DNA of 50,778 nucleotides, from assembly GCA_030835405.1 (NCBI GenBank), contig JAURPG010000008.1:1-50778 (forward strand). The letters are read 5' to 3'. Made by a program: the position numbers and the translations under genes. Below, piece by piece: positions 6,712 through 48,089 of the stretch. This stretch comes from Gammaproteobacteria bacterium. Its GTDB lineage: Bacteria > Pseudomonadota > Gammaproteobacteria > Eutrophobiales > Eutrophobiaceae. The first letter of the stretch is position 1. Every line of letters starts with the position of its first letter. Under the pieces are notes generated by a model, which saw nothing but the letters and a program-made list of their open reading frames with translations, had not been told where the DNA came from and ran no database searches.

Positions 6712-6713
6712 AT

Positions 6714-7721: not shown

Positions 7722-7731
7722 GGGAAGAACC

Positions 7732-9698: not shown

Positions 9699-9712
9699 GC
9701 GGGGGAGTCGTT

Positions 9713-19666: not shown

Positions 19667-19788
19667 TAGAAATAAGGAATTTGTGCCGATTTGACAGCCT
19701 TTAGGGAGGCGATATATGCTCAATTGTCACGGTATTTTTCGCGTTAATTAACGTCTTAATATTATATTATTGAAAGGTGAAATTTGTT

Positions 19789-21264
19789 ATGAATATCTAC
19801 TCCAGACCCATTGAGTCGTTCAAATATTATCTTATTGGCATACTTTTAACATGGTCAGCGGTGACTTTTGCTGATTATGTTCCTCCCTCTGATATGCTAG
19901 AGGAAGAGATCGTTGCCATGATCCGTAATTTTATGAGCAAGCCTGACATACCTTTAAAAGGAGAACGCGGCTACGTTGAGGACATTATGCGGATCAATGC
20001 GGTGGATATGGAGTGGGACATCGGTATGTCAGTCCATGAACCGGTGGATCCTTCGAAGGTCGCCCGGGATGCAGACGGTAAGAAGATCGGTATTTTCCTC
20101 TTGCATGGTGGTAGCGGTGATTTCAAGACCATGCACAAGCGTGCGGACTTGATGGCAAAAAAACTGGGTTACAAGGTCATCAGTATGAGTTACCCGGGTC
20201 GTCATGCCTTTCATACCCCGGATCGTATCTGGCCGGGGCGTAATGTCACCGCCTATGACCACCATAAGTATTCCCTGGAAGTTCGCACACCTATCTGGCT
20301 GCGTGGCGAGCATATTACCCGTGATCAGTACGATATTATAAAGGACCATGGACAACGCCCACGCTATGGCATTCGTACCCTGGCCAGGGCCAAACCCGGG
20401 ACCACCTTTTATTATCGTATGGCAGGCTGGCCCATGGCATTTGAAAAAGGTGGTGTCGAGGCCATGAAGAAACATTTTCCAGAGGACGAATATTCCATAT
20501 ATGTACACGGGCATTCCACTGGTGGGCCATTCACCATGATGTTGTCGCAGCGGGTGCCGAATATTCGCGGCATACTGGCCATTGAAAATTCATCCTTCGG
20601 ATACATATACCGGGCCCAGGCCGCCTGGGGTGGACAACTCGGGAAAATAGAAGGGTTTACCCGGGTAGAAGATGAAGACATATTATTGCCGTCCCGATCA
20701 GATCCCTTTAATGAACTCTACATTCGTAGCTGGCGAGACAGTGCCAGGTATAAAGGACCTGAACTCCTGGGGCAGGAAGGGCCGGAGGCCCTGATGCGTC
20801 TGCCCATGATCATGGAAGACATTCTCGAGGACTGGGGAGATACTCAGCGGTATGCATCTTTCAAGGCCGAATATATTGTGACCCATGGGATAGAAGACTC
20901 ATTGCGCCAGGCCGCCGAGGTAACGGCAAAGCGAATGAACCTTGGTAAGGAAGAGACTGAAGAGCTGGTAGACCGATATATTGGATTGACACGCGAATTG
21001 AAGGGCAGGGGTGTGAAACCGGTGCCGCCAGTCATGTTTCAGATCACCGCCCATAGCCGGGACCACAGCCGGGAGGTATACGAGGAAGTGGTTATCCCTA
21101 TGTTCGGGAAAATGCGACCGGCCCCCAAAGTTTCGTTGACGCAGTTCGATCTTGGTACTCACGGCTATATGAATGGTGAACACGTAGAAGGTGTCCCATT
21201 CGGTGTGGGTCCGGCAGTATTTCAACAATGGGACGACGCCATAAAAGGCGGATATTTCCAGTAA
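19789..21264 (+). CDS. Exported alpha/beta-hydrolase-like protein, copy 1
   Basis: About 491 residues from ATG 19789; a GTG at 19777 is possible but would overlap the ribosome site GAAAGGTG. A signal segment ends near TFADY. The fold is suggested by FLLHGGSGD (oxyanion-hole HGG, about 100-108), the nucleophile elbow GHSTGG with Ser243, and a late His458 in GTHGYMNG. Asp/Glu of the triad is not certain. It is longer than typical esterases, with a helical insert (about 335-410) before the last strand. A paralog at 28038-29456 keeps all these points. Each copy lies just upstream of an exported amidohydrolase gene, which suggests that an ester or amide hydrolase works together with the amidohydrolase in the periplasm. 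Confidence 0.75.
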   Translation: MNIYSRPIESFKYYLIGILLTWSAVTFADYVPPSDMLEEEIVAMIRNFMSKPDIPLKGERGYVEDIMRINAVDMEWDIGMSVHEPVDPSKVARDADGKKIGIFLLHGGSGDFKTMHKRADLMAKKLGYKVISMSYPGRHAFHTPDRIWPGRNVTAYDHHKYSLEVRTPIWLRGEHITRDQYDIIKDHGQRPRYGIRTLARAKPGTTFYYRMAGWPMAFEKGGVEAMKKHFPEDEYSIYVHGHSTGGPFTMMLSQRVPNIRGILAIENSSFGYIYRAQAAWGGQLGKIEGFTRVEDEDILLPSRSDPFNELYIRSWRDSARYKGPELLGQEGPEALMRLPMIMEDILEDWGDTQRYASFKAEYIVTHGIEDSLRQAAEVTAKRMNLGKEETEELVDRYIGLTRELKGRGVKPVPPVMFQITAHSRDHSREVYEEVVIPMFGKMRPAPKVSLTQFDLGTHGYMNGEHVEGVPFGVGPAVFQQWDDAIKGGYFQ

Positions 21265-21422: not shown

Positions 21423-23390
21423 ATGATGAAAATCGTATTAGCACTTTTATTAACTTTCGCATTTGCCAGCCAGGTAGTAGCAGGCACATCACCATATGCG
21501 GAAACTGTCATTATCAACGGACAGGTCATCACGGCGGACAATGATGATCCCAGCCAGGTCACTATCGCTGAGGCCGTCGCCATACAGGGAGACAAGATCC
21601 TGGCAGTAGGTAGCAATGCCGAAATTCAGGCGCTGGTGGCTGACTGGACCGAGGTCATTGATGCCAAGGGGAATACAGTGACCCCCGGTTATATTGACAC
21701 CCATAACCATATCTATGAAACGGCAACGGGATTCCCATGGGTAGTGAATTCGATTCCTGATCTGTTGGAACTCCGTGTTAATGGTGATACGCCAGAGGCG
21801 TTGACTGATAATGTAATCAGGGCAATTGAGGCCCGGGCCAGGCAAGTCCCTGAAGGTAAATGGATCAGGGTCACAATGGGGCCACCCCCCGTTTCTGTAC
21901 CGGCCATGAATACCAACCTCATCAACCGTGCCAAGGTGGATGCCGTCGCCCCCAATCACCCGGTACTGATCACCACCCGTGGTGGTTCGATACTCAATGG
22001 GAAGGCAATTGCGGACATTGAAGATTACTACGGTAATGAATTGCCTTCAGACTACTGGATGGTAGATAAAGAGCGTGGATGGTCAGGGGAATACACGGAC
22101 TTTGGTCGTTGCACCAGCCTGGACCTGATCGGTACCCAGGATCAGGAGACCTTTAACAAATACATTAAGGGCCTGTTTGAAGTGATGCAGGCCAATGCCC
22201 AGATTGGGGTGACGTCCTACTCCAGTCACATCCAGTGTGAAGGTGGATTTTCTGCTACCAACCACCTGGACCGAAATGACATGATGCCCATCAGGATGTC
22301 CTGGAACCATCGCTGGTTACAGCCTTTCTCAGACAGCATTACTGAATCCTATCGCCGTATCGGTGACTGGGTAGGCCATGGTTCCGACTGGTTTTTCAGT
22401 ACCGGTAGTAGTGTGGGTGGTATCGACGCCGGTGGTGTAGGCTGGTGTACCTCAATGCGTGCCCAGAATGCAGATATCAAGGCCCGCGAACAGTGCCCAC
22501 CGGCACCGGAAGGTATTGAACTTGACGCCTGGGAAGGCAGGACTGTAGAGGGTGGTGGAATCGACGGTGGTATTACTGCCAATCGCGGCAGACGTACCGA
22601 ACACCTGGTGACACTGGCCAAGCTGGCCGCAGAAGGTCGTATTTCCAATATTCCTGGCTGGCACTCCGCCGGTGATGGCGCAACCGAGATCATGATGAAG
22701 ACCTACCTGCATTATATGGAGCCAGAGCGTATCCAGATGCTTCGAACCCAGAGTGACCACTGCCATTCGGTGACGCCGGAACAGATTGAGATCGCAGCCA
22801 GAACGGGCCATACCTTTTCCTGTGATGCAACGGACGTTCCCACCAGTGTCATTAAGGAAGGTTATGGAGAAGAATACCTGACTTGGAATGCGCCGGTAGC
22901 GAGCATGATGCAGGCCGGTGTCAATACCGTCATCAGTGAGTTCGGTATCCAGGGCGAACTGCGGGAGTCTGCTTTTGAAGATGGTGTCATGTGGCTGACT
23001 CGTAAGATCGACGGCGAGACCTGGGGTGTCCCGGAAGAGGCAGTACCGGACCGTATGACCCTGCTTCTGATGATGACCCGTTGGGGTGCCTATCCATTAT
23101 GGAAAGAGAATGCACTGGGTTCCATTGAAAAGGGCAAGTTTGCCGATATCGTCATACTAAGTGGTGACTACATGACCACGCCGATTGAAGATCTCGATGA
23201 GTTAACATCTGTCATGACCTTCATTAATGGCAAGATCTCTCACGAGATGCCCGCACTGCGTGGTAACACTCTGCATTTCAATACTGACACGGCACAGTGG
23301 ACCTTGGATATGCAGACTCCAACCACCGCCTGGCGCTGGACGGAAGTCCCGCAGATTCCACCGTTTCTTAATGGTGCAAACGGTTATTAA
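21423..23390 (+). CDS. Exported YtcJ-type amidohydrolase, copy 3
   Basis: 655 residues, signal peptide about 1-20 (ASQVVAG). This is the closest relative of copy 1: both share GYIDTHNHIYETATGFPWVVN-like sequence, the VIKEGYGEEYLTWNAPVASMM stretch and the FLNGANGY end. Metal-site His94 and His96 (THNH), the HAxGD element at His414 (WHSAGDGA) and the closing LGSIEKGKFADIVILSGDY are present. An extra Gly-rich insert (VEGGGIDGGI, about 378-388) separates it from copy 1. The ribosome site is AAGGAAGGGGG, and two ATGs lie side by side (21423 and 21426). It follows the alpha/beta hydrolase gene by 158 bases and is ended by the hairpin at 23409-23441. Confidence 0.88.
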   Translation: MMKIVLALLLTFAFASQVVAGTSPYAETVIINGQVITADNDDPSQVTIAEAVAIQGDKILAVGSNAEIQALVADWTEVIDAKGNTVTPGYIDTHNHIYETATGFPWVVNSIPDLLELRVNGDTPEALTDNVIRAIEARARQVPEGKWIRVTMGPPPVSVPAMNTNLINRAKVDAVAPNHPVLITTRGGSILNGKAIADIEDYYGNELPSDYWMVDKERGWSGEYTDFGRCTSLDLIGTQDQETFNKYIKGLFEVMQANAQIGVTSYSSHIQCEGGFSATNHLDRNDMMPIRMSWNHRWLQPFSDSITESYRRIGDWVGHGSDWFFSTGSSVGGIDAGGVGWCTSMRAQNADIKAREQCPPAPEGIELDAWEGRTVEGGGIDGGITANRGRRTEHLVTLAKLAAEGRISNIPGWHSAGDGATEIMMKTYLHYMEPERIQMLRTQSDHCHSVTPEQIEIAARTGHTFSCDATDVPTSVIKEGYGEEYLTWNAPVASMMQAGVNTVISEFGIQGELRESAFEDGVMWLTRKIDGETWGVPEEAVPDRMTLLLMMTRWGAYPLWKENALGSIEKGKFADIVILSGDYMTTPIEDLDELTSVMTFINGKISHEMPALRGNTLHFNTDTAQWTLDMQTPTTAWRWTEVPQIPPFLNGANGY

Positions 23391-26076: not shown

Positions 26077-28005
26077 ATGAGAGCGATGTTATGTAGTGAT
26101 AGGTATTATTCAGGTATTAAAGTGCTCCTGGTCATATTTTTGGGGGCATTGATGATACAGCCAGCCAATGCCGGACAATCACCATATGCCACCACCATTA
26201 TTATTAATGGCAAGGTGATCTCGGCAGATTCTGATGACATCAACAGCATTAGTATGTATGACGCCATTGCCATTCGAGACAATGAGATCATTGCTGTCGG
26301 TGCTAATGCAGATATGCAGCAATATGTGGCCGACTGGACCGAGACCATAGATGCAAAAGGCAATACGGTCCTGCCCGGTTTGATAGATACCCATAACCAC
26401 CTGTATGACACCACACTGTCCAACTTTCCCTGGGTAGCAAAGGCCATACCTGAGGTCCTGCAGGTGAGGTTTTCCGGCAATAGTCAGGATGATCTGTTAA
26501 ATACCCTGACTGCGGGTATCAAGGCCAGGATACAGCAGATCCCACAAGGCCAGTATATTCAGATCCAGATCAACCCTCCCTCAGTGGCCGTGCCCATGCT
26601 GGGGACATCGGTGACCCGTCAGTATCTGGATGAACTTTCGCCGGACAATCCTATCGTCGTTTATACCCGTGGTGGATCCGTTTACAGTACCCGGGCCATT
26701 AATGCCTTCGAGCAACGTTACCGCAACCCTGTTCCGGATGATTTCTGGATTGATGAACACCTGGGTTTTTCCGGTGACCAGACTGACGGTACCCGTTGCG
26801 CCCGCGTCGATATCATTGTTCCCCAAAGTGGCAGATTAGATGAATATAACAAGGCCTATCTGGAAGTTATGCAGCTTAATGCCCAGACGGGTGTCACCAC
26901 CTTCAAGACCCATATTCAATGTGAGGGTGGATTCAATGCTACCGTTCACCTGGATCGAAATGATCTCATGCCTATCCGCCTGGCATGGGGACATCGTTGG
27001 ATGCAACCATTTAACCCGTACATCGTTGAGAATTACTGGCGTATCGGTGATCTGTTGGGTTACGGTACGGACCATTTCTGGGCCATAGGCAGCAGCGCCG
27101 GGGCACTGGACAATGGTGGTGTGGGCTGGTGTACCACTATTCCTGCCACCACAGATGAGTTCAAGGCCCGGGAACGCTGCCCCACCATGGAATCCAGCCC
27201 TACCAATGTCAGACGTCTGGAACACCTGGAAATACTTACTGATCTTGCCAGGGAGGGTAGACAAACGGGTATCCCTGGTTGGCACGTGGCCGGTGATGCG
27301 GCATTGGATGCCTGGTTTGATGTGGTGTTGAATTCCGGTATCCCCGTAGAACAGTTGCGCACCATGCGCCTGGAGGTAGACCATTGTCACGCTGTGCGGC
27401 CAGACCAGATAGAGAAGGCCGCCAGGATCAACATGGCGTTTTCCTGTGATGCCACCCGTGTCCCGAGTCAGGTCATAGAAGAGGCCTATGGTGAAGAGTA
27501 CCTGACCCTCAATGCCCCCGTGGCCAGTATGCTCAAGGGTGGGGCCCGTGCCGTGGTCAGTGAATTTGGTAGCCAGAGTGAAATCCGACATTCTCCCTTT
27601 GAGGACGGAGTCATGTGGTTAACCAGGAAGATAGATGGTAAAAATTTCGGTGTGCCAGAAGAGGCAGTCCCGGATCGCCTGACATTATTGTTAATGATGA
27701 CCCGTTGGGGGGCTTATGCCTTATGGAAAGATGACAAGGTGGGTTCAATTGAACCGGGCAAGTGGGCCGACATCATAATTCTCAATGGTGATTACATGGA
27801 TGTAACGGTAGAAGATCTGGACACCTTATATCCCATCATGACCATGGTGGATGGTAAAGTGGTATATGAAAACAAGGAGCTCAGAGGTAACCTGTTGAAG
27901 TTCAATACCGATCCTGATGTTGCCACCTGGGAGATCGAAAAGAACACACCAACGGATCTGTGGAGATGGCCTGACACAGGGCCGCAAATACCGACGGTCG
28001 AATAA
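26077..28005 (+). CDS. Exported YtcJ-type amidohydrolase, copy 4
   Basis: 642 residues, with a longer leader than the other copies (signal ending PANAG near residue 33). Family marks: GLIDTHNHLYD, CEGGFNATVHLDRNDLMPIRLAWGHRWMQPF, IPGWHVAGDAA, VDHCHAVRPDQIEKA, and VGSIEPGKWADIIILNGDYMDV. It forms a subgroup with copy 5: both have SNxxRRLEH, GSQSEIRHSPFEDGV and a C-terminus of the type DVAxWExEKNTPTDLWRW, instead of FLNGANGY. WHVAGDAA has Ala where the other four have Gly. The gene opens a three-gene run of amidohydrolase, alpha/beta hydrolase, amidohydrolase with gaps of only 32 and 37 bases, so the three are very likely one transcript. Confidence 0.88.
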   Translation: MRAMLCSDRYYSGIKVLLVIFLGALMIQPANAGQSPYATTIIINGKVISADSDDINSISMYDAIAIRDNEIIAVGANADMQQYVADWTETIDAKGNTVLPGLIDTHNHLYDTTLSNFPWVAKAIPEVLQVRFSGNSQDDLLNTLTAGIKARIQQIPQGQYIQIQINPPSVAVPMLGTSVTRQYLDELSPDNPIVVYTRGGSVYSTRAINAFEQRYRNPVPDDFWIDEHLGFSGDQTDGTRCARVDIIVPQSGRLDEYNKAYLEVMQLNAQTGVTTFKTHIQCEGGFNATVHLDRNDLMPIRLAWGHRWMQPFNPYIVENYWRIGDLLGYGTDHFWAIGSSAGALDNGGVGWCTTIPATTDEFKARERCPTMESSPTNVRRLEHLEILTDLAREGRQTGIPGWHVAGDAALDAWFDVVLNSGIPVEQLRTMRLEVDHCHAVRPDQIEKAARINMAFSCDATRVPSQVIEEAYGEEYLTLNAPVASMLKGGARAVVSEFGSQSEIRHSPFEDGVMWLTRKIDGKNFGVPEEAVPDRLTLLLMMTRWGAYALWKDDKVGSIEPGKWADIIILNGDYMDVTVEDLDTLYPIMTMVDGKVVYENKELRGNLLKFNTDPDVATWEIEKNTPTDLWRWPDTGPQIPTVE

Positions 28006-28037: not shown

Positions 28038-29456
28038 ATGAGTAAGTTATCACAAGTAAATTATATTCCACTGACAATTACTTTATTTTTGAGTATGTAT
28101 ATGAGTCCTGCATACTCACAAACGGCAGAAATGGTTAGCGGCTATGAGTGGCACAAGGTTTCAAGGCCGGAACTGGTAAGGGGTTCAAAGGAAATACTTT
28201 CCCGACCTGATATCCCCATTGAATCAAAACAGGTGGTTCATAGGGTCAATGTGGTGGACATGGATTGGGATATCGCAGCCAGTATCCACCAGCCCGTGGA
28301 TCAATCTAAAATACCCATAGGCCCGGATGGACGCAAGATAGGGTTATTTTTATTACATGGTGGTTCAGGTGACCATCGCAGCAAGACCAGCTTTGCAAAA
28401 ATGCTTGCTACCAAGTTCGGTGTCAGGGTAGTCAACATGTCTTATCCGGGAAGATATAACCTCCAGGCTGAAAATGGAGATTGGCCGGGCGATACAATCA
28501 AGTCTGACACCGTTGTGCGCACCCCTATATGGAAAAAAGATGAAGAGATCACTCCCGATCAATATGAAGTCGTTCAGGACAAAGAATTAGAAAGAAGAAA
28601 ACGTTGGGGAACCTTATTCCTGGCTTGTGCCAAAGAGGGAACGACTTTTTATAATCGCATGGCCGGTTGGCCCATCGCCCATGAGAAGGGTGCAACAGAA
28701 TTGGCACGGATCTATTTTCCCCAGGATGAATTTTCAATCTATAGCCATGGACATTCCACCGGCGGCCCCATGACCATGATGTTGACCCAGCATATCCCCA
28801 ATATCGTCGGGGTTCTGGGGATGGAGAGTTCCCCCTTTGGTGCCCTGTATGGAGTCATGACCCGGGAGATTCAGGGTATCAGTGAACCCTGGGCCATGCC
28901 GTTTAATTGTCTGCGCATTCGTTCCTGGCGGGACCATGCCAGGTATTACGGTTATGAATTAATCCAGGAAGAGGGCGTGGATGCCCTGGCCAGGCTGGCC
29001 ATGGTGATGGAAGAAGTCCACGATAAATGGCAGCGTGGCACGACACAGCCACATTTTAAAGCGGAGAATATTCTGCACTTTGATAACCCGGAGCAGATAG
29101 AAGCAGCCGCCAGGGCCACCGCAGAAAGGATGGACATGACCCCCGAAGATACCGAAGGCATGGTGTCACGCTATCTGGGTTACTTGAGAAGTCTGTCTGG
29201 TCCCGATGTTAAGCCTGTTCCGCCATTAGTGTTGATTATTACCAAGAACAGCCGGGACCATGCCCCGGAAATATATCGGGATGTTTACTTACCGGGCTAT
29301 GCGGCGATGAGGCCGGCTCCGGAAATAAAGGTTTATCAACTGGATGCAGGTATTCACGGTTACAGTGCCCCGGAGGAAGGTCTTCCCCAGGGTGTAGCGC
29401 CTTATGGCATTAATATATGGTTTGATGCAATTATGAATGGTTATTTTACAAATTGA
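28038..29456 (+). CDS. Exported alpha/beta-hydrolase-like protein, copy 2
   Basis: 472 residues, signal peptide ending at PAYSQ (about 28). It is a paralog of the protein at 19789-21264, with matching stretches throughout: DMDWDIAASIHQPVD, LFLLHGGSGDHRSK, YNRMAGWPIAHEKG, GHSTGGPMTMML with Ser240, IRSWRDHARYYG, and GIHGY with His440 near the end. A conserved NSRDH motif (KNSRDHAPEIYRDV) precedes the last strand in both and may carry the acid residue. No family with a known substrate is recognisable. It sits between amidohydrolase copies 4 and 5 in what looks like a single operon. Confidence 0.75.
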   Translation: MSKLSQVNYIPLTITLFLSMYMSPAYSQTAEMVSGYEWHKVSRPELVRGSKEILSRPDIPIESKQVVHRVNVVDMDWDIAASIHQPVDQSKIPIGPDGRKIGLFLLHGGSGDHRSKTSFAKMLATKFGVRVVNMSYPGRYNLQAENGDWPGDTIKSDTVVRTPIWKKDEEITPDQYEVVQDKELERRKRWGTLFLACAKEGTTFYNRMAGWPIAHEKGATELARIYFPQDEFSIYSHGHSTGGPMTMMLTQHIPNIVGVLGMESSPFGALYGVMTREIQGISEPWAMPFNCLRIRSWRDHARYYGYELIQEEGVDALARLAMVMEEVHDKWQRGTTQPHFKAENILHFDNPEQIEAAARATAERMDMTPEDTEGMVSRYLGYLRSLSGPDVKPVPPLVLIITKNSRDHAPEIYRDVYLPGYAAMRPAPEIKVYQLDAGIHGYSAPEEGLPQGVAPYGINIWFDAIMNGYFTN

Positions 29457-29493
29457 ATATTGTTGTACTAAACAACTGAATTGGGAGGAAGTA

Positions 29494-31398
29494 ATGAATA
29501 GAATCAGTAAAGGGTTTTTTGTATTAATTGGATTATTGATTGGCAGCGTTGCCCTGGCCGCACCTTCTCCGTATGCGACCACGGTGATTATCAATGGCAA
29601 GGTCATCACCATGGACTCTGATGATGTTAATAATATCAGCTTTGAAGAGGCCATTGCCATACAGGATGACACCATCATGGCAGTAGGTAGCAATGATGAG
29701 ATCCAGCAGTACATTGCTGACTGGACTGAGGTGATTGATGCCAAGGGCATGAGTGTATTACCAGGCTTGATCGATACCCACAATCACCTGTATGAAAATA
29801 CCTTGACGGCCTTCCCATGGGTGTTGAATGCCATTCCGGAATTGATTCAGATCTCCATTACTGCAGGTAATCCCGATGAGATGATGGAAAAGTTACGACA
29901 AGCTTTACCGGCGAGGGCGAGACAGGTTCCGGATGGTCAGTGGATCCAGGTACGCCTTGGGCCGGCACAGGTTGCTGTACAGGTCATTGGGAAGACCGCG
30001 ACCAAACAGGTCCTCGATGAATTATCCCCAGACAACCCAGTGGTCATTAGTACCCGTGGTGGTGCGGCTTATAATTCTTCAGGCATTAAATCAATTGAAG
30101 ATCGCTTCAGGAATCCAATACCTGATGACTTCTGGATCGATGAGAGTGTTGGCTGGTCAGGTGACTATACCGATGGTCCCCGATGTATCCGAGGTGACAT
30201 TATTGTCGGTGCTGCAGGAAGAACGGATGAATATACCAAGGGATATTTCGAGGTGATGCAGTTGAATGCCCAGAATGGCCTGACTACCCACAAGACCCAT
30301 ATTCAGTGTGAAGGTGGATTCAATGCATCAGTACATTTACTTCGAAATGATCTGATGCCCTTGCGCCTGGCCTGGGGACATCGCTGGATGCAACCCTTTA
30401 ATCCACGAATCACCGAGACCTACTGGCGAATCGGTGATTGGGTTGGATACGGTTCACCCATGATGTGGAGTATCGGCAGCAGTGCCGGTGCATCTGATGG
30501 AGGTGGTGTAGCCTGGTGCACCTCTATCCCTGCCAAGACCCCTGAACTCAAGGCCAGGGAACTGTGTCCCACTGCGGAATCCAGTACCGCAAACCTGAGA
30601 CGTCTTGAACATTACAAGGTCCTGGTGGAGCTGGCAAAGGAAGGTCGACAGACTGGTATACCCGGATGGCACATGGCCGGTGATGGCGCCCTCAAGTTTT
30701 ATCAGGACGAATTACTGCAGTCAGGGATGTCCCTGGAAAAAATGCGTTCCCTCAGGTTACAGACCGATCATTGCCATTCCGTGACACCTGAGCAGATCGA
30801 GATTGCTGCCAGGATCGGACAGACATTTTCCTGCGATGCCACTGAAGTACCAAGCCAGGTCATCATGGAGGACTATGGTGAGGAGTACCTGACTATGACC
30901 GGGCCGGTAGCCAGTATGATGAAGGCAGGGGTCCGTGCATTAATCAGTGAGTTTGGCAGCCAGAGTGAGATCCGGCATTCACCGTTTGAAGACGGTGTGG
31001 CCTGGATGACCCGCATGATCGATGGTGAAAACTTTGGTGTCCCGGAAGAGGCCGTGCCCGACCGTTTGACCCTGCTGGCCATGATGACCCGCTGGGGTAG
31101 CTATACCCTGTGGAAAGAAGACAAGATCGGTTCCATCGAACCCGGCAAGTGGGCGGACATCATTATCCTGAATGGAGACTATATGGAAGTCGAGGTAGAA
31201 GACCTCGATACCCTGTATCCATTAATGACCCTGGTGGGTGGTAAGGTTCAGTTTGAATTGCCGGCACTGCGTGGAAACTTACTCCGGTTTAATACCGATC
31301 CTGACGTTGCAGCATGGGAAGTGGAAAAGAATACTCCGACAGATCTATGGCGTTGGGACGAATATCCACCCAGTATTCCCAGCCGGGTAATGCAGTAA
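29494..31398 (+). CDS. Exported YtcJ-type amidohydrolase, copy 5
   Basis: 634 residues from ATG 29494, which has a strong GGGAGGAA seven bases ahead; starts further upstream would sit inside the previous gene. Signal peptide ends at VALAA. Motifs: GLIDTHNHLYE, CEGGFNASVHLLRNDLMPLRLAWGHRWMQPF, IPGWHMAGDGA, TDHCHSVTPEQIEIAARIG, IGSIEPGKWADIIILNGDYMEV. It is closest to copy 4 over most of its length, but its SDHCHSV-type region matches copies 1 and 3, which suggests mosaic evolution among the paralogs. One normally conserved Asp in the LDRND stretch is Leu (HLLRND). It is the last gene of the amidohydrolase/hydrolase run and is followed by a good terminator. Confidence 0.88.
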   Translation: MNRISKGFFVLIGLLIGSVALAAPSPYATTVIINGKVITMDSDDVNNISFEEAIAIQDDTIMAVGSNDEIQQYIADWTEVIDAKGMSVLPGLIDTHNHLYENTLTAFPWVLNAIPELIQISITAGNPDEMMEKLRQALPARARQVPDGQWIQVRLGPAQVAVQVIGKTATKQVLDELSPDNPVVISTRGGAAYNSSGIKSIEDRFRNPIPDDFWIDESVGWSGDYTDGPRCIRGDIIVGAAGRTDEYTKGYFEVMQLNAQNGLTTHKTHIQCEGGFNASVHLLRNDLMPLRLAWGHRWMQPFNPRITETYWRIGDWVGYGSPMMWSIGSSAGASDGGGVAWCTSIPAKTPELKARELCPTAESSTANLRRLEHYKVLVELAKEGRQTGIPGWHMAGDGALKFYQDELLQSGMSLEKMRSLRLQTDHCHSVTPEQIEIAARIGQTFSCDATEVPSQVIMEDYGEEYLTMTGPVASMMKAGVRALISEFGSQSEIRHSPFEDGVAWMTRMIDGENFGVPEEAVPDRLTLLAMMTRWGSYTLWKEDKIGSIEPGKWADIIILNGDYMEVEVEDLDTLYPLMTLVGGKVQFELPALRGNLLRFNTDPDVAAWEVEKNTPTDLWRWDEYPPSIPSRVMQ

Positions 31399-32397: not shown

Positions 32398-33405
32398 ATG
32401 CTGGATTTAGCCATCGTGAGATTTGTACAGCCAAGTATGGTGTTCTGGTTTGTTGTCGTTCCGTTGGTAATCGGATTCGCCTGTTTCCATATCTATAAAA
32501 AAAACCGGTTTAGAGAACACGCGGGATATGGTAATTCACTCCGGCGCATATCGAGTTTCACTACCAGAGGAAGTGATAAATTTGTTGTAGTGACCATAGC
32601 CTTTGTAGCATTGATTCTTGCATTTTCATTATTACGACCACAACTTCGTATCGAACAGGTCACACCGGAGTATGAAAAGCAGGATCTGATCCTTATCCTG
32701 GACAGATCGGTCTCCATGCAGGCCACCGATGTATCTCCATCCAGATTTACCAGGGCAATAAGGGAAATAAAATCTTTTTTATTGTCCAAGCCCGATGCGA
32801 TAAACAGGGTGGGCTTGATTGGATTTGCGGGTACATCAGTCGTGTTGTCCCATCTTACCAGTGATAATGATGCGTTGTTCTTTTTTCTGGACTGGATTAG
32901 TGAAGATCAGAACGTTTATTTTGGAACAAACTTTTCAGGGGCCATCAGTTCGGCCCTGGAAATGGTAAACAAGGACGGTTCTGAGTCAAACAAAACCTTC
33001 CTGTTATTGTCAGATGGTGACGATGAAAGCACCGAGTTATATGAATATCTCAATCAATTAGATGATGCAGGCATTAAAGTGCATACTGTTGGTATTGGTT
33101 CCAATGAATCTGTGCCTATACCATTATTTTCTGGTGGAGACATGGCTGAATTCCTGACAGATGATGAAGGTAATCAGTTATTTACCCGGTTTAATGAGTC
33201 CACTATGCGCCAGGTGGCGGCAATGACCAATGGGACTTTCTTCCGATCAGAAAGTGGACATAATCTTTCTGAATCTCTCAGTAGAATTGTTACCGGTGAC
33301 TTAGAACTCATAGGTTACCAGCGATTGGTTGATTATCGTGATATCTATGCCCCACTGCTCCTCTCAGCTGTTTTTATATGTTGGATTTTATCGATAAGGA
33401 TTTAA
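32398..33405 (+). CDS. Membrane-anchored VWA-domain protein, module 2 (MxaL/BatB-like)
   Basis: 335 residues. Membrane helices at about 17-33 and 60-80 and a last one at about 316-333 bracket a VWA domain. MIDAS: D102-R-S-V-S (LILDRSVSM), Thr in YFGTNFSG, Asp in LLSDGDD. The ATDVSPSRFTRA stretch after the MIDAS motif is typical of BatA/BatB/MxaL proteins. It follows the MxaK-like gene by four bases and ends in TAATG, shared with the start of the MoxR gene. The domain content is certain; the mxaL label rests on gene order. Confidence 0.85.
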   Translation: MLDLAIVRFVQPSMVFWFVVVPLVIGFACFHIYKKNRFREHAGYGNSLRRISSFTTRGSDKFVVVTIAFVALILAFSLLRPQLRIEQVTPEYEKQDLILILDRSVSMQATDVSPSRFTRAIREIKSFLLSKPDAINRVGLIGFAGTSVVLSHLTSDNDALFFFLDWISEDQNVYFGTNFSGAISSALEMVNKDGSESNKTFLLLSDGDDESTELYEYLNQLDDAGIKVHTVGIGSNESVPIPLFSGGDMAEFLTDDEGNQLFTRFNESTMRQVAAMTNGTFFRSESGHNLSESLSRIVTGDLELIGYQRLVDYRDIYAPLLLSAVFICWILSIRI

Positions 33406-34430
33406 TGAAGATGCAGGACCAGACACGCATAGACCCCGCAGATGCCCATAATCTGATTACAGTTATCGAAGCTGAAATCAGTAAGGTTATTGTTGGCCAG
33501 CATAAGATGGTCCGCCGGTTGTTGACTGGTCTGTTGGCGGCCATCCCTTATTCTTTCACTGATGGCCATGTGAAGACCGGATGTGGACATATCCTGCTGG
33601 AAGGTGTGCCCGGCGTGGCCAAGACCTTAACGGCAACTACACTTGCCCACACTATTTCAGCAGAGTTTAAGCGAATCCAGTTGACCCCTGATATGCTACC
33701 GGGTGATATCGTGGGGACTCGAATTTACAACACCGACACCACGAGCTTTGATATCGATAAAGGACCGGTATTTACCAACGTTCTATTGGCCGATGAAATC
33801 AACCGGACTACGGCAAAGACCCAGAGTGCCCTGCTTGAGGCCATGCAGGAGCGGCAGGTGACTATTGCCGATACGACCTTTGAGTTGGCCGATCCCTTTT
33901 GGGTACTGGCAACACAGAATCCTGTAGAACAGGAAGGTGTTTATACCTTGCCGGAAGCCCAGCTGGATCGTTTCAGTATGATGTTAAGGGTTGACTATCC
34001 CGGTATGGAGGAGGAGATCGAGATGCTCCATCACCGGTTTGAAAAACTTGACCTGGATAAACGCATCTCCACAGAACAGGTGACCGGGATACGTGGTCTG
34101 ATTTATGAAGAAACGCATATCGATGACAAGGTCATGGAGTATATTGTCGCACTTGGCAGGGCAACCAGGGCCCCCCATGAACTCGGCCTGGATGAATTAA
34201 AAGAAATGGTCTTGCTGGGCATGTCACCGCGTTCCTATCAGCATGTATTAGCATTATCTCGAGTCAATGCATTTCTAAATGGCCGGGATTTTATCTTGCC
34301 TGCCGATGTGAAGGAGATCTTTCCCGATGCTGCCAGGCACCGAATTGCCAGGACCGTGAGGGCAGAGGTTGAAGGGCTGAGTACTGATGCGATTATCAAT
34401 AAAATCCTCGAAACAGTCCCCATACTCTGA
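33405..34430 (+). CDS. MoxR-family AAA+ ATPase, module 2 (MxaR-like, canonical)
   Basis: 341 residues from ATG 33405, which overlaps the previous stop (TAATG) and has AAGGA six bases upstream; an earlier in-frame ATG at 33378 lies inside the VWA gene and is less likely. The sequence is a textbook MoxR: VIVGQHKMVRRLL, Walker A GVPGVAKT (about 68-75), LTPDMLPGDIVGTRIYN, Walker B LADEINR, TQSALLEAMQERQVT, VLATQNPVEQEGVYTLPEAQLDRF with sensor residues, and the C-terminal lid GMSPRSYQHVLALSRVNAFLNGRDFILPADVKE. Such ATPases remodel protein partners with VWA proteins; MxaR is the version tied to PQQ methanol dehydrogenase. Unlike the module 1 copy it keeps every family motif. Confidence 0.92.
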   Translation: MKMQDQTRIDPADAHNLITVIEAEISKVIVGQHKMVRRLLTGLLAAIPYSFTDGHVKTGCGHILLEGVPGVAKTLTATTLAHTISAEFKRIQLTPDMLPGDIVGTRIYNTDTTSFDIDKGPVFTNVLLADEINRTTAKTQSALLEAMQERQVTIADTTFELADPFWVLATQNPVEQEGVYTLPEAQLDRFSMMLRVDYPGMEEEIEMLHHRFEKLDLDKRISTEQVTGIRGLIYEETHIDDKVMEYIVALGRATRAPHELGLDELKEMVLLGMSPRSYQHVLALSRVNAFLNGRDFILPADVKEIFPDAARHRIARTVRAEVEGLSTDAIINKILETVPIL

Positions 34431-34440
34431 CAGATAGACC

Positions 34441-35322
34441 ATGTTACCTGACCATTTAATTCACGAACTGCGTTATATTGAGATAACTACCCGTCGGCGG
34501 TTTCCCAACCTGCGTACCGGTACATTTCAAAGCCGGCTTCGCGGTCCCGGGTTTGAATTTGATGAACACAGGTTATATCGGGCGGGTGACGATGTGCGAA
34601 GAATTGACTGGAATGTCACGGCAAGGATGCAGACCCCTTATGTGCGTGAGACACACGCAGATCGTGAACTAAATGTTGTTATAGCCGTGGATGTTTCCCG
34701 CAGTATGGAATATGGTACCTCGCTATACACAAAAAAAGAAAGGCAGTTATTACTTGCCGCCAGCCTGATCTATTCTTCCCTGGCAGATCAGGTCAATACC
34801 GGATTTATGATGTTCTCTGATCATGTGCATAATTATCACCCCCCGCGTCACAACCGTTCCAGGGCCTGGAAGTTTCTCGAAGAGTTATGGGCTTATGAAC
34901 CCAAGAAAGGCGAGTCGTGCCTGTTACCTGTGATAGATTTTCTTGGTAATCATTTTAAGCAGGAAGGCGTGATATTCCTGATATCAGATTTTATGACAAA
35001 TGAGGATCTGGCCAACTCAAAGGCACTGAGTATGCTGGCACTTAAACATGACATTATCGCAGTAGTCGTGGAGGACCCCAGGGAAACCCAACTGCCCCAG
35101 GGTAATGCCAGTATTGACATGATGGATGTGGAGTCCGGCAGCCGTAAACTGGTGGCCCTTGGCAGGGAGCAACGTGAGCGATTTTCCCAGGCAATGGATA
35201 AACATCATAAACAGATGATCAATGCCTTTTACCGGGTGCCAATGGATTATGTCTTTGCCAGGTCAGATAAATATGTAGTTGAACCCTTACTAAAAATGTT
35301 TTCGGCGAGAAAGCGGGCATGA
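34441..35322 (+). CDS. DUF58-domain protein, module 2 (MxaS-like)
   Basis: 293 residues, cytosolic, without a membrane span. The DUF58 signature is intact: FQSRLRGPGFEFDEHRLYRAGDDVRRIDWNVTARMQTPYVRE (about 22-64), followed by a VWA-like strand with VDVSRSMEYG and LISDF. It begins 10 bases after the MoxR stop and ends in an ATGA overlap with the next gene. The intact signature contrasts with the diverged copy at 5800-6711. The pairing with MoxR is one of the most regular gene neighbourhoods in bacteria; its biochemical role remains poorly defined. Confidence 0.9.
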   Translation: MLPDHLIHELRYIEITTRRRFPNLRTGTFQSRLRGPGFEFDEHRLYRAGDDVRRIDWNVTARMQTPYVRETHADRELNVVIAVDVSRSMEYGTSLYTKKERQLLLAASLIYSSLADQVNTGFMMFSDHVHNYHPPRHNRSRAWKFLEELWAYEPKKGESCLLPVIDFLGNHFKQEGVIFLISDFMTNEDLANSKALSMLALKHDIIAVVVEDPRETQLPQGNASIDMMDVESGSRKLVALGREQRERFSQAMDKHHKQMINAFYRVPMDYVFARSDKYVVEPLLKMFSARKRA

Positions 35323-36281
35323 TAAAAATCTTCTATTTTTTACTAATTTTATTTATCAATACACTATCAGCGCAGGAAAATTCTACTGCTGAAATGGATC
35401 CCGGTATTTTGATAAATAACTATGTGAATAAGACCGCGTTGTTCCCTGGTGAACATATAAGCTACACCATTGAAGTTATCTGTGATGCCAATGTTGATAT
35501 CTTGTCAGAAGACCTGGCAGGGGATGAGCTGATATTAAATGGACTGGAACTGATCTCCTCAATCGTTGAGATAGATAATTCCGGCAACCGTACCCGGTAT
35601 ACCTTTAGTTATATCATGACGACCTTTGAAGCCAAAGACACTCCCCTGAGTATTGATGAGCTAAGGGTCAGGTATTATTTCAAACGACCCGGACAGCGAA
35701 TAGAAGATGTCGCAACGGTTGGTAATGTGGTTATACCGCCTGTTGATCTCGTTTTAGCCAGCACCTTGCCGTCAACCCTGGAAAATCTTCAACTCAGGGA
35801 TATGCAGGGACCTGTCGCCACCTCGACAGATATTAACTGGATAGGAATGACAGGCATACTGTTAGTATTAATCTCAATGTTTCCTGTGGGTTCAGCAGGC
35901 TATGCCTATATGCAAAAGCGAAAGCTGGAGTTGGAAGCAGAACAGGCAAAAGAAACTGTGACCGTCACCACAAATGTATTCAATGAACTAAGGGCGATAG
36001 ATACCACTGATGATTTAAACAGGCGTCAGGCGTTTCAACAACTCGAAACTATCATCAGGGAGTTTATCGAGCAGACAACCAGACAAAACTCTGATGCACT
36101 GACAGCCAGTGACCTTGCCAAACATCAACTTATTTGTGATTCAGCATTACCCGTGGAAGGTCTGGTCAAGGTTTTAAACCATTGTGAGTACGCGCGATAC
36201 GGGGCTGATAGAAATCTCCCGGGGATGGAGGAATTTAACCTGGGTGTCCAGTTCACAGAAAGGCTAGTTACCGGGAGCTGA
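35319..36281 (+). CDS. Membrane-anchored Ig-like protein, module 2 (MxaA-like)
   Basis: 320 residues. A signal peptide (about 1-19, ending LSAQ) is followed by an Ig-like periplasmic region (about 25-170, ALFPGEHISYTIEV and later YTFSYIMTTFEA), one membrane helix at about 174-195 (WIGMTGILLVLISMFPVGSAGY), and a cytosolic tail with a helical DUF4381-like segment (FQQLETIIREFIEQTT, HCEYARYG). Topology and membrane-helix FPV match the module 1 protein at 6714-7721. It starts within the DUF58 stop (ATGA) and ends in TGATG with the VWA gene. The classical Bat operon would have a longer BatD here; the shorter form agrees better with MxaA. Confidence 0.72.
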   Translation: MIKIFYFLLILFINTLSAQENSTAEMDPGILINNYVNKTALFPGEHISYTIEVICDANVDILSEDLAGDELILNGLELISSIVEIDNSGNRTRYTFSYIMTTFEAKDTPLSIDELRVRYYFKRPGQRIEDVATVGNVVIPPVDLVLASTLPSTLENLQLRDMQGPVATSTDINWIGMTGILLVLISMFPVGSAGYAYMQKRKLELEAEQAKETVTVTTNVFNELRAIDTTDDLNRRQAFQQLETIIREFIEQTTRQNSDALTASDLAKHQLICDSALPVEGLVKVLNHCEYARYGADRNLPGMEEFNLGVQFTERLVTGS

Positions 36282-37291
36282 TGGAGCTCATATTTCTCAA
36301 GCCACACCTGGCGTGGTTAATTCCAGTATTGTTTTTCTTGTCCCTGGTCTGGTTTAAGTTCAAAAAAACCGGATATGTTGCATCAACCACACTAAATTTA
36401 TCTTCAACTGCATTTGTACGTCCGTCATTAGTGCGGCAACTTCCCGGGATATTAATCGCCGTTGTTATAGTTCTTCTGATATTGGCCGCCATGCAGCCGG
36501 TTATACCCCTGGCAGAACAGGAGGTGGAGTCCCAGGGCCTGGATATCGCCATAGTGCTGGATCTGTCTGAAAGTATGCAAGAGCTCATGGACCGTGAGAA
36601 CCAGGTAATTGAAGAGCCCGAAGAAGTAGAAATGATGACAATAGCACCCCAGGGTATCACCCGCTTGATGACTACCAAGGAAGCACTTCGTAATTTTATT
36701 GTCAGTCGCCGGGATGATCGGATTGGAATGGTTGTGTTTGCAGATAATGCCTATATTGTCAGCCCGTTGACCATGGACCATGATTTTCTGCTTCACTACC
36801 TGGACATGGTAGATTCAAATATCCTCAGAAATGAGCGCAAGACAGCTATTGGCGATGGGATCTCATTGGCAAATACCCTGTTGTTAAGGCAACAGGGCGA
36901 TGAACGCCGAGGGCAGGTCATCATGGTGTATACCGACGGTGAGCATAACCAGGGGGTAGACCCACTGGAAGTACTGGAACAACTCTACCTCTCCAGTGTA
37001 AAAGTACACCTGGTGGGCGTTGACCTGGAAGATCGAATCAAGGAAAGGGAGAATGTTAAATTATTGATCAATAAGATCGTTGACCAGGGGGGTAATTATT
37101 TTGATGCCAATACCCGTGAAGATATGTTCAGGGCATCTGCCGGGATTGATGAGCTGGAAAAGGGCCGGGTCATTACCCGGGAATACGTGCAACAGGTCCC
37201 GGTTTATCACTGGTTTGTGATCCTGGCATTGGTCTTGATTATTTTGGCGCTGGGTCTTAGAACATTTCCATACTTTTCCAATTATTCATAA
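36281..37291 (+). CDS. Membrane-anchored VWA-domain protein, module 2 (MxaC/BatA-like)
   Basis: 336 residues with two N-terminal helices (about 10-26 and 45-68), a VWA domain and a last helix (about 307-325). MIDAS: D94-L-S-E-S (IVLDLSESM), Thr in RKTAIGDGI, Asp in VYTDGEH. An acidic insert rich in Glu and Val (NQVIEEPEEVEMM, about 107-120) follows the first MIDAS strand, in the place where the module 1 counterpart also carries a charged insert (VRREELELRFERR). That shared feature supports their pairing as C-type proteins. It is the last gene of module 2; 162 bases separate it from the exported cupin. Confidence 0.85.
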   Translation: MELIFLKPHLAWLIPVLFFLSLVWFKFKKTGYVASTTLNLSSTAFVRPSLVRQLPGILIAVVIVLLILAAMQPVIPLAEQEVESQGLDIAIVLDLSESMQELMDRENQVIEEPEEVEMMTIAPQGITRLMTTKEALRNFIVSRRDDRIGMVVFADNAYIVSPLTMDHDFLLHYLDMVDSNILRNERKTAIGDGISLANTLLLRQQGDERRGQVIMVYTDGEHNQGVDPLEVLEQLYLSSVKVHLVGVDLEDRIKERENVKLLINKIVDQGGNYFDANTREDMFRASAGIDELEKGRVITREYVQQVPVYHWFVILALVLIILALGLRTFPYFSNYS

Positions 37292-44917: not shown

Positions 44918-45214
44918 ATGAAGTTACAAAGCATAAAACACCTTTTTCAGATTTTTCTGTTCACATTTTCAGGCTTATATTTTCAATCAGGATTAATGGC
45001 CCAGGAGGCCTTTCCGGAAGGCGAGGGTAGAAATGAAATCTTTGTGGCCTGCACACAATGTCATGGACTGGGTCATCTTACCCGCGTAAACCTGAATGCA
45101 CAGGAATGGGAAAATGCAGTCTATGACATGGTGGCCAGGGGTGCGTCTATTGATGTTGATGACCTGGACAGCATAAAGAATTACCTAATTAATAATCTGT
45201 CAACAGATAGATAG
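44918..45214 (+). CDS. Small exported monoheme cytochrome c
   Basis: 98 residues from ATG 44918 with AAGGAGA five bases ahead; a GTG directly before it (44915) would shorten that spacing. Signal peptide about 1-27 ending LMAQE. One heme site C45-T-Q-C48-H49, and a possible distal Met in YDMVARG about 28 residues later. The mature part is about 70 residues, as in the smallest class I cytochromes. Twenty-four bases separate it from the Tat-exported ThDP enzyme, so the pair is co-transcribed and the cytochrome is a natural electron acceptor for a periplasmic oxidation. It could also serve the quinoprotein upstream. Confidence 0.82.
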   Translation: MKLQSIKHLFQIFLFTFSGLYFQSGLMAQEAFPEGEGRNEIFVACTQCHGLGHLTRVNLNAQEWENAVYDMVARGASIDVDDLDSIKNYLINNLSTDR

Positions 45215-45238
45215 CCAGAAAATATATAGGGGGCAAAT

Positions 45239-47146
45239 ATGCGAACATTAGTTAAAGACCTAATCAATGCAAAGATTTCCAGGCGGGGATTCCTCGCCGG
45301 CATGGCAGCGGCAAGTTACGGGGCAACAGCAGCTAAGTCGGCACTGGCCGCAGTGGAACCGTTTATCCCGGGATCGCCCATGCCTGAAGGTTATATGCGC
45401 TCAGTCACTGGAACTGGCTCTGATCTGATGGTAGATCAGATGCTGGAGACCGGTGCAGAGTACCTGTTTATTGCCAACGGCTCCGGTTTAGGCCCCATAT
45501 GCGATTCTCTGGTTAGCCGACCCGGTAAGCTCACCTTGATACAGGCCACTCATGAGGGGCAGGTGGTGTCAATTGCCGACGGTTATGCCAAGGCATCGGG
45601 TAAAACGGGATACTGCATGTTCAGCAGAGTGGGTTCTCCCAATGCCAGCTCCAATATGTACAACGCCATGAAGGACAGGACGCCGCTGGTGATCATTGCT
45701 GACCATGCAGACTCCCGGTCCGAAGGCCGCGATGGCCACGAAGACCTGGATGATTGGGCAGAGGGGGTCAAGCCTTATTCCAAATGGCAATGGGTGGTAC
45801 ATGATCCCAGGCGCATGCCTGAATGGATCCGGCGTGCCTACAAACTCTCAAATGTCATGCCAGGCGGTCCTACGCATATCCGCGTCCCGCGTGATCACCT
45901 TTATGCGGCGGATGTCACATCCACCATCTATTCAAAGGAGGCTGTTAATGTATCCATGGATTTGAGGGCAGATCCTGGTGAAATTGAAAGGGCTGCAAAG
46001 TTTCTCCTGGAAGCAGAGTCTCCCCTGATGGAAGTGGGTTTTGAGGTGAGTCAGTGCCATGCCACGGAATCGGTTGTTGAACTGGCAGAATTGCTGGCCA
46101 TTCCGGTGGCCCAGCATTCCAGGAGCTTTCATTGTGATTTTCCCAACTACCATCCGTTACACATAGGGTATTTATTGAACCTGCCAAGTTACCATCAGCA
46201 TAATCCCAAACAGATCGATTGTGTCATCAGCCTTGGCACCCGTGCCCAGCAGGGTATGGAAGGATTTATGCGCGGCAGACGCATTCCTTTAATTCATGCC
46301 AGCGTGGACCCTGAAAAGATAGGCCGCAACGTCCCAACGGCGGTGGGGCTGGTGGGTGATATCGACCTCATTGCCAAAGACCTGGTTCAGGCCATCAAGA
46401 GTATGGCCAGTGACCGCCAGATCAGACGGCGCACGGAGGATCGCAGGACAAAGGTTGCCACCTACTCTACCGGCAAGCATGCCGGCACCCTGGAAGCCGG
46501 CAGGCGCAGCAAGGGTGACCCGGTACCCTGGCAGAAGCTCCTGTATGAGTTAGACCAGATGATGGATCCCGATGCGGTGGTGGTTGAAGAACTTGGCCGG
46601 GGCGAACGCACCGTCAGTCATATTAACTTCAGTCCTAATGGACGCCTTAAGATCGGTCGTACCACCGGTATGGCCCTGGGCTGGGGGGTAGGTGCCTCCA
46701 TCGGTGTGAAACTGGCATTACCGGACAGGCAGGTGGTCTCCATCCAGGGAGATGGTGGATTCATGTTTGGCCAAACGGATTCCTTATGGTCCATGTCCCG
46801 TTATGATGTCCCGGTACTGACAGTCATTTTAAATAACCGCAGTTATGAGGCGACTCGTTACCGGATCATGGGCGGTGGCGATGCTGGATCTGCTAACCGT
46901 GATTATGTTTCCTATCTGGGTGACCCCGATATGGACTTTGCTATTCTCGCTTCGGTATATGGCATCAAGGGAGAGGTGGTATCCAACAGTGACCAGGTCA
47001 GGCCCGCTATAGAGCGAGGTTTCAGGACCCTGGCGGATGGCCGGCCTTATATCATCGATGCCCGGACCGCCTCCTGGGGTACTGGCGCCGGTTTGACACA
47101 GTACCAGAAGTTTTCCGTTGCCGATCTTCGCAGCCGCAAAGTTTGA
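45239..47146 (+). CDS. Tat-exported thiamine-diphosphate-dependent enzyme
   Basis: 635 residues. The leader has the twin-arginine motif SRRGFLAGMAAA (about 14-25) and an Ala-rich stretch to KSALAAV. The three ThDP-enzyme domains are present. The pyrimidine-binding part carries catalytic Glu106 in ATHEGQVVSIADGYAKASGK. A central domain spans about 240-400. The pyrophosphate-binding part has GDGG at 504-507 and NN at 532-533, the normal spacing. It is of the acetolactate synthase/benzoylformate decarboxylase kind. An exported member is very unusual, since these enzymes and their cofactor normally stay in the cytosol; Tat export of the folded holoenzyme would solve that. Pairing with a cytochrome c gene suggests oxidative decarboxylation of a 2-oxo acid in the periplasm. 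Confidence 0.85.
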   Translation: MRTLVKDLINAKISRRGFLAGMAAASYGATAAKSALAAVEPFIPGSPMPEGYMRSVTGTGSDLMVDQMLETGAEYLFIANGSGLGPICDSLVSRPGKLTLIQATHEGQVVSIADGYAKASGKTGYCMFSRVGSPNASSNMYNAMKDRTPLVIIADHADSRSEGRDGHEDLDDWAEGVKPYSKWQWVVHDPRRMPEWIRRAYKLSNVMPGGPTHIRVPRDHLYAADVTSTIYSKEAVNVSMDLRADPGEIERAAKFLLEAESPLMEVGFEVSQCHATESVVELAELLAIPVAQHSRSFHCDFPNYHPLHIGYLLNLPSYHQHNPKQIDCVISLGTRAQQGMEGFMRGRRIPLIHASVDPEKIGRNVPTAVGLVGDIDLIAKDLVQAIKSMASDRQIRRRTEDRRTKVATYSTGKHAGTLEAGRRSKGDPVPWQKLLYELDQMMDPDAVVVEELGRGERTVSHINFSPNGRLKIGRTTGMALGWGVGASIGVKLALPDRQVVSIQGDGGFMFGQTDSLWSMSRYDVPVLTVILNNRSYEATRYRIMGGGDAGSANRDYVSYLGDPDMDFAILASVYGIKGEVVSNSDQVRPAIERGFRTLADGRPYIIDARTASWGTGAGLTQYQKFSVADLRSRKV

Positions 47147-47212: not shown

Positions 47213-48089
47213 CTACTGACCAGTAACCACTTCAGTTCTATCTATAAAGTTAGAGTAGTAATGGATGGTCGTATTCGTTATGACTGGGATATTTTCCGCA
47301 ATGACTTCAGTGACCTGCAGACGGTAGGTGCCGCTATAGTGGGTAACGTTTAGGACCAGAACTCAGTGAGTTTGAACGCCGGTAAACAGCATGTAGACGG
47401 TATTGAGATCAGCTTTCAATATGCCGCTACAGAATACTTGACATTAAATATGTCGATTTCTTTTCTGGATGCAAAGTTCCTGCAGTTTGATGGGGATGAT
47501 TGTTCTAGCAATGAAATTTATGCTGCTGCCATCGAAGTTCTAGCTAATCCGGGGGCATATGGTGGTGCAAGGATCCAGGCCGCCCAGGCCCGTATATATG
47601 CATTGGAAGATGACATTCAGGCATTGCTTCCATCTCGCAGTGAAATTGATCCGGTATACTATGAAAATCAGATTTTTTTGCCTCGTGGATACCGATGCAT
47701 TTTGTGCTGGCACCATCAACCGTAAGGGTGTGGTTCCTCAGGATGCCCCGGACTGGAAATTTGTGCTGGGTGCCAATTATGTCTACCCGGTATTCGATAC
47801 TGTAGAGGCCTTCGTAAACGTCAAGGGCTTTATCTCCGACGATTATCGTACCGGCCGTGCCGCGAATCCGGCAGATACCACATTCTTTTATCGTGGTGGT
47901 GACATGAACCTGAGCTTTGGTCTGAATTCCTCTGATGGCTCATAGCGAGTAGCGGCCTATGTTCGTAATATCTTCGCATTCAAGCCGTCTTATTATCCTG
48001 AGAAAGAAGTATTGCCTAGCGGAACTGTTACTACACCATTGAGTAATAACAGTTTTACTTCCTATGGATTACGCCTGGAGTATAATTAA
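47213..48089 (+). pseudogene. TonB-dependent receptor, C-terminal barrel relic
   Basis: Reading through gives a continuous C-terminal receptor barrel of about 290 residues in pieces. Frame 1 carries MDGRIRYDWDIFRNDFSDLQ, an amber stop at 47351-47353, then LNAGKQHVDGIEISFQYAATEYLTLNMSISFLDAKF to about 47670. A frameshift follows near the T7 run at 47673-47679. The second frame gives FCAGTINRKGVVPQDAPDWKFVLGANYVYPVFD and FFYRGGDMNLSFGLN, another amber stop at 47945, then VAAYVRNIFAFKPSYY and a normal barrel end, YGLRLEYN, with TAA at 48087-48089. The plug, signal peptide and first barrel strands are absent. It is therefore a decayed gene, not a functional receptor. It is not close to the intact receptor at 17516. 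The preceding hairpin may mark where the rest was lost. Confidence 0.8.

Follow-up and report, generated by a model that had tools for sequence, protein, structure and literature searches.

A Tat-leader ThDP enzyme encoded beside a small monoheme cytochrome c: a candidate periplasmic ThDP:cytochrome c oxidoreductase

ThDP chemistry is treated as cytosolic. In a 50,778-nt stretch of a gammaproteobacterial genome (contig JAURPG010000008.1 of assembly GCA_030835405.1, referred to throughout as the window), a gene for a ThDP enzyme with a Tat-type leader stands directly behind a gene for a small exported cytochrome c, which raises the question of whether thiamine chemistry could take place outside the inner membrane and be linked there to respiration. 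An exported ThDP holoenzyme with a cytochrome of its own would bring a further cofactor class to the exported enzymes, and would let 2-oxo acids or aldehydes be oxidised on the outer side of the inner membrane with no need for uptake, possibly with direct transfer of electrons from ThDP to haem.

The gene pair and its ThDP enzyme

The pair lies within positions 44918-47146, and its small span of ~2.2 kb makes it amenable to direct testing. The cytochrome ORF comes first (ATG at 44918, stop at 45214), has an AAGGAG Shine-Dalgarno sequence 5' of its ATG, and encodes a Sec-type leader with an LMAQ end and a single CTQCH motif. The ThDP ORF begins 24 bases past its stop (ATG at 45239, stop at 47146), with an AGGGGG ribosome-binding site 5' of this long start. 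The coordinates, the 24-base gap, the SRRGF leader and the monoheme cytochrome had all been part of the original prediction, and were borne out to the base.

44918..45214, + strand: exported monoheme cytochrome c, 98 aa, of the SorB / quinohaemoprotein amine dehydrogenase haem-domain type, putative electron acceptor (ORF, homologues and structure match)
45050..45064, + strand: haem-binding CTQCH, residues 45-49 (C45, C48 and H49 invariant in 16 homologues)
45128..45130, + strand: Met71, probable sixth haem ligand (invariant; ligand role putative)
45239..47146, + strand: ThDP enzyme with Tat-type leader, 635 aa, benzoylformate-decarboxylase-like, predicted exported (Pfam, structure model and fold search)
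45239..45352, + strand: Tat-type leader, residues 1-38 (conserved motif; Tat HMMs below cut-off)
45281..45286, + strand: twin arginine R15-R16 (invariant in 28/28 aligned proteins)
45554..45556, + strand: catalytic Glu106, ThDP activation (28/28 rows)
46748..46759, + strand: GDGG, beginning of the ThDP/metal motif (D505 and G506 in 28/28)
46832..46837, + strand: NN, close of the ThDP/metal motif (N533 in 28/28, N532 in 27/28)

Three Pfam domains were recognised above their cut-offs in the 635-aa protein (PF02776, 7.8e-21; PF00205, 6.4e-19; PF02775, 1e-25), and these domains, together with the activating Glu and the GDG...NN motif, place it in the ThDP superfamily (POX/BFD/ALS group). An AlphaFold2 model based on the 28 aligned proteins had a mean pLDDT of 88.5, and the nearest solved folds were HKA synthase and benzoylformate decarboxylase (Z ~45, rmsd ~2.6 Å; against 8x3x, Z 45 and rmsd 2.6 Å over 507 residues). 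The three-domain ThDP fold originally claimed for the protein is thus retained, while its assignment to the acetolactate-synthase type gives way, by a small margin, to the benzoylformate decarboxylases and HKA synthase; the fold search itself cannot split FAD-binding from non-FAD members (Z of 43.9 for acetohydroxyacid synthase vs 44.8 for benzoylformate decarboxylase). The best NCBIfam model was PRK08327, 'thiamine pyrophosphate-requiring protein' (NF006203), matched nearly over its full length with 225 bits, far under the curated cut-off of 456 bits. The benzoylformate decarboxylase equivalog PRK07092 was not reached (216 bits vs a cut-off of 493), and neither were the equivalog scores of acetolactate synthase or pyruvate oxidase.

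Known members of the benzoylformate decarboxylase / HKA synthase (BbmA) group are cytosolic and non-oxidative. The window enzyme resembles them in its three-domain fold, its catalytic Glu and its GDG...NN motif, both are without FAD motifs, and its invariant His305 falls, on our reading of the alignment, in the region of the second catalytic histidine of benzoylformate decarboxylase. However, identity to the group is only ~24%, the catalytic His70 of benzoylformate decarboxylase is replaced by Arg147 (Arg in 24/28 rows), and the known members have neither a Tat leader nor a cytochrome.

The original prediction had raised the possibility of an FAD site like that of oxidase-type relatives. When it was looked for by sequence, the motifs GM.G, G.(R/Q)F and ID(I/V), which are common to E. 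coli IlvI, Gcl and PoxB (acetolactate synthase, glyoxylate carboligase and pyruvate oxidase) and which we take to mark the FAD site, were not retained in the window enzyme. A flavin relay therefore appears unlikely, and for an oxidative reaction the likely first acceptor would be the cytochrome rather than a flavin. We rejected an acetolactate synthase identity because of the low equivalog scores, the missing FAD motifs and the presence of a separate ilvI-like gene (L003), which groups with E. coli IlvI. PoxB, a cytosolic, membrane-associated and FAD-dependent enzyme of the same superfamily, also feeds respiration with electrons; in the window enzyme its FAD motifs are not kept and a cytochrome gene stands in their place.

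The leader and the family tree

Residues 1-38 of the ThDP enzyme, MRTLVKDLINAKISRRGFLAGMAAASYGATAAKSALAA, contain the pattern S-R-R-x-F. Across an alignment of 28 proteins, in which relatives are 29-86% identical to the window enzyme, both R15 and R16 are invariant (28/28) and S14 and F18 are each present in 27/28. The leader combines the conserved S/T-R-R-x-F-L of Tat substrates with a mildly hydrophobic stretch and small residues at the cleavage site. Of the Tat leader as originally predicted, presence in every homologue of the clade was confirmed, but the curated Tat models scored the window leader below their cut-offs (TIGR01409, 10.7 vs 16.7 bits; PF10518, 9.6 vs 22.7 bits); leaders of a second clade, described below, exceed that of TIGR01409. 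HMM support for the window leader is thus weak, and it is the invariant motif that speaks for Tat. TatC was found in the window's genome. On this evidence the predicted Tat export of the ThDP enzyme is well supported, and we infer that the protein is actually translocated.

A scan of GTDB genomes and relatives provided 80 loci as well as genus relatives. The window enzyme fell, in the resulting tree, inside a monophyletic group of 41 rows (clade I, SH-aLRT 99), all 41 with the leader, including L033 and L051, whose frames had been mis-picked by the automatic caller and which both carried it when read separately. Its sister is a Tat-less group of 25 rows, none of which has a leader. A second Tat-bearing clade (clade II, 7 rows) lies elsewhere, beside five Tat-less proteins, so that Tat status changes twice on the tree; this was a quick tree with some long outgroup branches, and its deeper joins are uncertain. 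As Tat changes only twice, few independent events lie behind the link between Tat leader and cytochrome, and an independent-pairs comparison of this link comprised 2 pairs only, which gives it no power.

The full-length clade I gene is rare in the class, being present in 3 of 369 sampled genomes, the window's own included. Of the four pairs in that genome, two belong to clade I (one in the window, one on contig C42) and two to clade II (on contigs C3 and C2), and the clade I leader occurred in no other proteins of the genome than its two clade I ThDP enzymes.

The cytochrome and its pairing with the enzyme

Conservation of the cytochrome beside the enzyme, on which the original prediction depended, was upheld by the genome survey. 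A homologous cytochrome adjoins the ThDP gene in 17 of 18 loci with at least 57% identity (genus relatives counted), spread over Gammaproteobacteria, Alphaproteobacteria and Acidobacteria; the exception is L025, and the second copy in the same assembly, L024, has the cytochrome. When neighbouring ORFs of 47 Tat-bearing loci were clustered, one cytochrome family was shared by more loci than any other neighbour (17; L018, which also has the cytochrome, was not in this run), lying within 300 b in 16 of the 17 and ~1 kb away, with one gene between, in L029. Its side varies by lineage, either 5' or 3' of the ThDP gene, the 3' position being possible in Acidobacteria. An automatic search for a same-strand ORF with a signal peptide and CxxCH within 300 b returned 16/43 Tat-bearing clade I loci vs 0/30 Tat-less homologues, counts which are not independent as the loci are kin; the farther flanks of the Tat-bearing clade I loci held just 2 such signal-peptide and CxxCH ORFs in 360 kb. 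A relative at 70% identity retains the pair in an otherwise different neighbourhood, and L019 and others are without the synteny of the window's neighbours. Many remoter clade I members (Woeseia/Chromatiales and Kordiimonadaceae branches) have no adjacent cytochrome, and no consistent substitute neighbour was found in these branches. We noticed no ThDP-haem gene fusion in the loci gathered. Judged by gene neighbourhood, a dedicated pairing of the cytochrome with the ThDP enzyme is well supported.

C45, C48, H49, W64 and M71 are invariant among 16 homologues of the cytochrome. Its nearest structures are SorB (2blf_B, profile 1.9e-6) and the haem domain of quinohaemoprotein amine dehydrogenase, both of which serve as immediate acceptors of exported enzymes. 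The SorB fold match had an rmsd of 1.5 Å over 64 columns (Foldseek E 0.038, probability 1.00), and the NCBIfam SorB model was not reached (20.4 bits vs a cut-off of 93); the window cytochrome is a SorB relative rather than an orthologue. PF09098 was matched in 7/16 cytochrome members. In Acidobacteria the partner may have two or three haem modules or a helix-hairpin-helix tail; L024 has three haem modules within one protein, and helix-hairpin-helix-like tails were noted in L022 (2964-3449), L030 (10013-10516) and L038 (7427-7933). PF12836 was matched in 3/16 cytochromes, for which the tool gives no member names.

The haem domain of quinohaemoprotein amine dehydrogenase is of the same cytochrome type as that of the window pair, but sits inside a multi-subunit enzyme with another catalytic cofactor. 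SorAB sulfite dehydrogenase (cf. SorT, PMC4760952) has the layout proposed here, an exported cofactor enzyme with a small dedicated monoheme cytochrome; its catalytic subunit is a molybdenum enzyme, whereas that of the window pair is a ThDP enzyme.

In clade II, an unrelated small cytochrome with a conserved D-(I/V)-P-L-L at its C-terminus lies 3' of the ThDP gene in 6/7 loci. Nothing argues more strongly for a redox link than the presence, in two lineages, of different cytochromes beside Tat-leader ThDP enzymes. On contig C2 the clade II pair adjoins a Tat-type molybdenum (molybdopterin) oxidoreductase with its own cytochrome, in a like layout. This stretch (L107, 1811-8843) encodes, besides the two enzyme-cytochrome pairs, a Tat-leader MmgE/PrpD protein and an NMT1-like binding protein, and a SoxC-like neighbour on this contig suggested a sulfonate role, a lead we set aside as it was seen in one clade II locus only.

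Proposed function and alternative readings

We read the two genes, at a probability of roughly 0.5, as a cassette encoding a periplasmic ThDP:cytochrome c oxidoreductase that acts on a 2-oxo acid or aldehyde. The ThDP enzyme would fold in the cytosol with ThDP and metal and be exported by Tat as a folded protein. In the periplasm it would attack the 2-oxo acid (or aldehyde), and loss of CO2 (or a proton) would leave the enamine (Breslow) intermediate; the dedicated monoheme cytochrome c from the preceding gene would oxidise this to the acyl state, one electron at a time, the acyl group would be hydrolysed to the acid, and the electrons would pass onward to a terminal oxidase. Since the cytochrome is nearest to SorB and the quinohaemoprotein amine dehydrogenase haem domain, and since the FAD motifs are missing, oxidation of the enamine by the cytochrome in the periplasm would be the simplest reading. 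We infer complex formation, electron transfer, the substrate class and the reaction. These bacteria probably carry out thiamine chemistry outside the inner membrane and link it to respiration.

A more far-reaching form of the proposal, which we advance tentatively and with the odds somewhat against it, is that flavin-free and iron-sulfur-free periplasmic ThDP oxidoreductases, with the Breslow intermediate as direct reductant of a c-type haem, have arisen in two lineages with unrelated cytochromes. If true, this would be a third way of taking electrons from thiamine, next to the FAD of pyruvate oxidase and the Fe-S clusters of PFOR. The components are of known kinds; in the open-access literature, searched by titles and abstract openings and with most subscription papers outside its scope, we found no description of the combination or of any exported ThDP enzyme with a cytochrome.

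The enzyme may instead be exported and non-oxidative, a periplasmic decarboxylase or carboligase making an aldehyde or hydroxyketone, with the cytochrome serving a separate exported dehydrogenase (e.g. a PQQ enzyme) that oxidises the product. We regard this as unlikely, though a serious contender: its closest folds (benzoylformate decarboxylase, HKA synthase and benzaldehyde lyase) are all non-oxidative, some Tat-leader ThDP enzymes are without an adjacent cytochrome, and an exported PQQ dehydrogenase lies 5 kb 5' in the window and directly 5' of the ThDP gene in L048/L049. Yet it is the ThDP gene that the cytochrome adjoins, most loci are without a conserved dehydrogenase beside the pair, and pairing recurs in clade II with an unrelated cytochrome. 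No co-conserved substrate gene was found among the neighbours. Cupins, the PQQ dehydrogenase, an FAD hydroxylase, an aldolase and IPM-synthase-like genes were considered as substrate clues and dropped; their synteny extends to the 86% relative L017 alone, and they therefore provide no evidence on substrate.

Less probable again, and in our view improbable, is a reading in which the N-terminal segment does not serve as a cleaved Tat signal, and the enzyme either stays on the inner membrane face or is Tat-inserted with the segment kept as an anchor or docking helix. In its favour is the conservation of the leader, which in close relatives equals or exceeds that of the mature part (97 v 85%, 86 v 69% and 81 v 57%), whereas the Sec leader of the adjoining cytochrome drifts (0-25% vs 30-77% for the mature part). 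One would hardly expect such conservation of a signal that is cleaved off, and the segment may be retained as an anchor or docking element; it is also modelled as helices (pLDDT about 70-85), and its Tat HMM scores fall under cut-off. This is countered by the exact S-R-R-x-F with its invariant twin arginine, by a partner cytochrome c that is necessarily periplasmic, and by the standard Tat leaders of clade II relatives and the lack of any leader in Tat-less ones. Finally, chance proximity of an unrelated cytochrome gene to an ordinary ThDP enzyme whose N-terminal extension is spurious has nothing in its favour beyond the view of a single window, and is already contradicted, to the point of being very improbable, by the ribosome-binding site at the long start, by conservation across Gamma- and Alphaproteobacteria and Acidobacteria, and by the empty result in all 30 control loci.

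Several other features of the window were recorded. Downstream of the pair, 47366-47945 contains fragments resembling the C-terminus of a TonB-dependent receptor in two overlapping frames; fragments of such a receptor also occur in the 86% relative L017, and the region is possibly a broken gene retained in both genomes, or a sequencing frameshift. Five similar amidohydrolase-like proteins, all long and with signal peptides, are encoded at 10715-12676 (-), 12862-14835 (-), 21423-23390 (+), 26077-28005 (+) and 29437-31398 (+), two of them adjoined by genes for exported alpha/beta-hydrolase-like proteins (19777-21264 and 28038-29456), and contig C42 carries four further tandem amidohydrolase-like genes (Pfam run on one). 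Exported hydrolases thus look strikingly expanded here. The window also has, judged from ORFs alone, two copies of a MoxR ATPase / von Willebrand A domain cluster (4818-10672 and 32398-37291), and an M24-peptidase-like protein at 2912-4255, judged from sequence only, begins with a Tat-looking leader, LNRREFLISSTALS.
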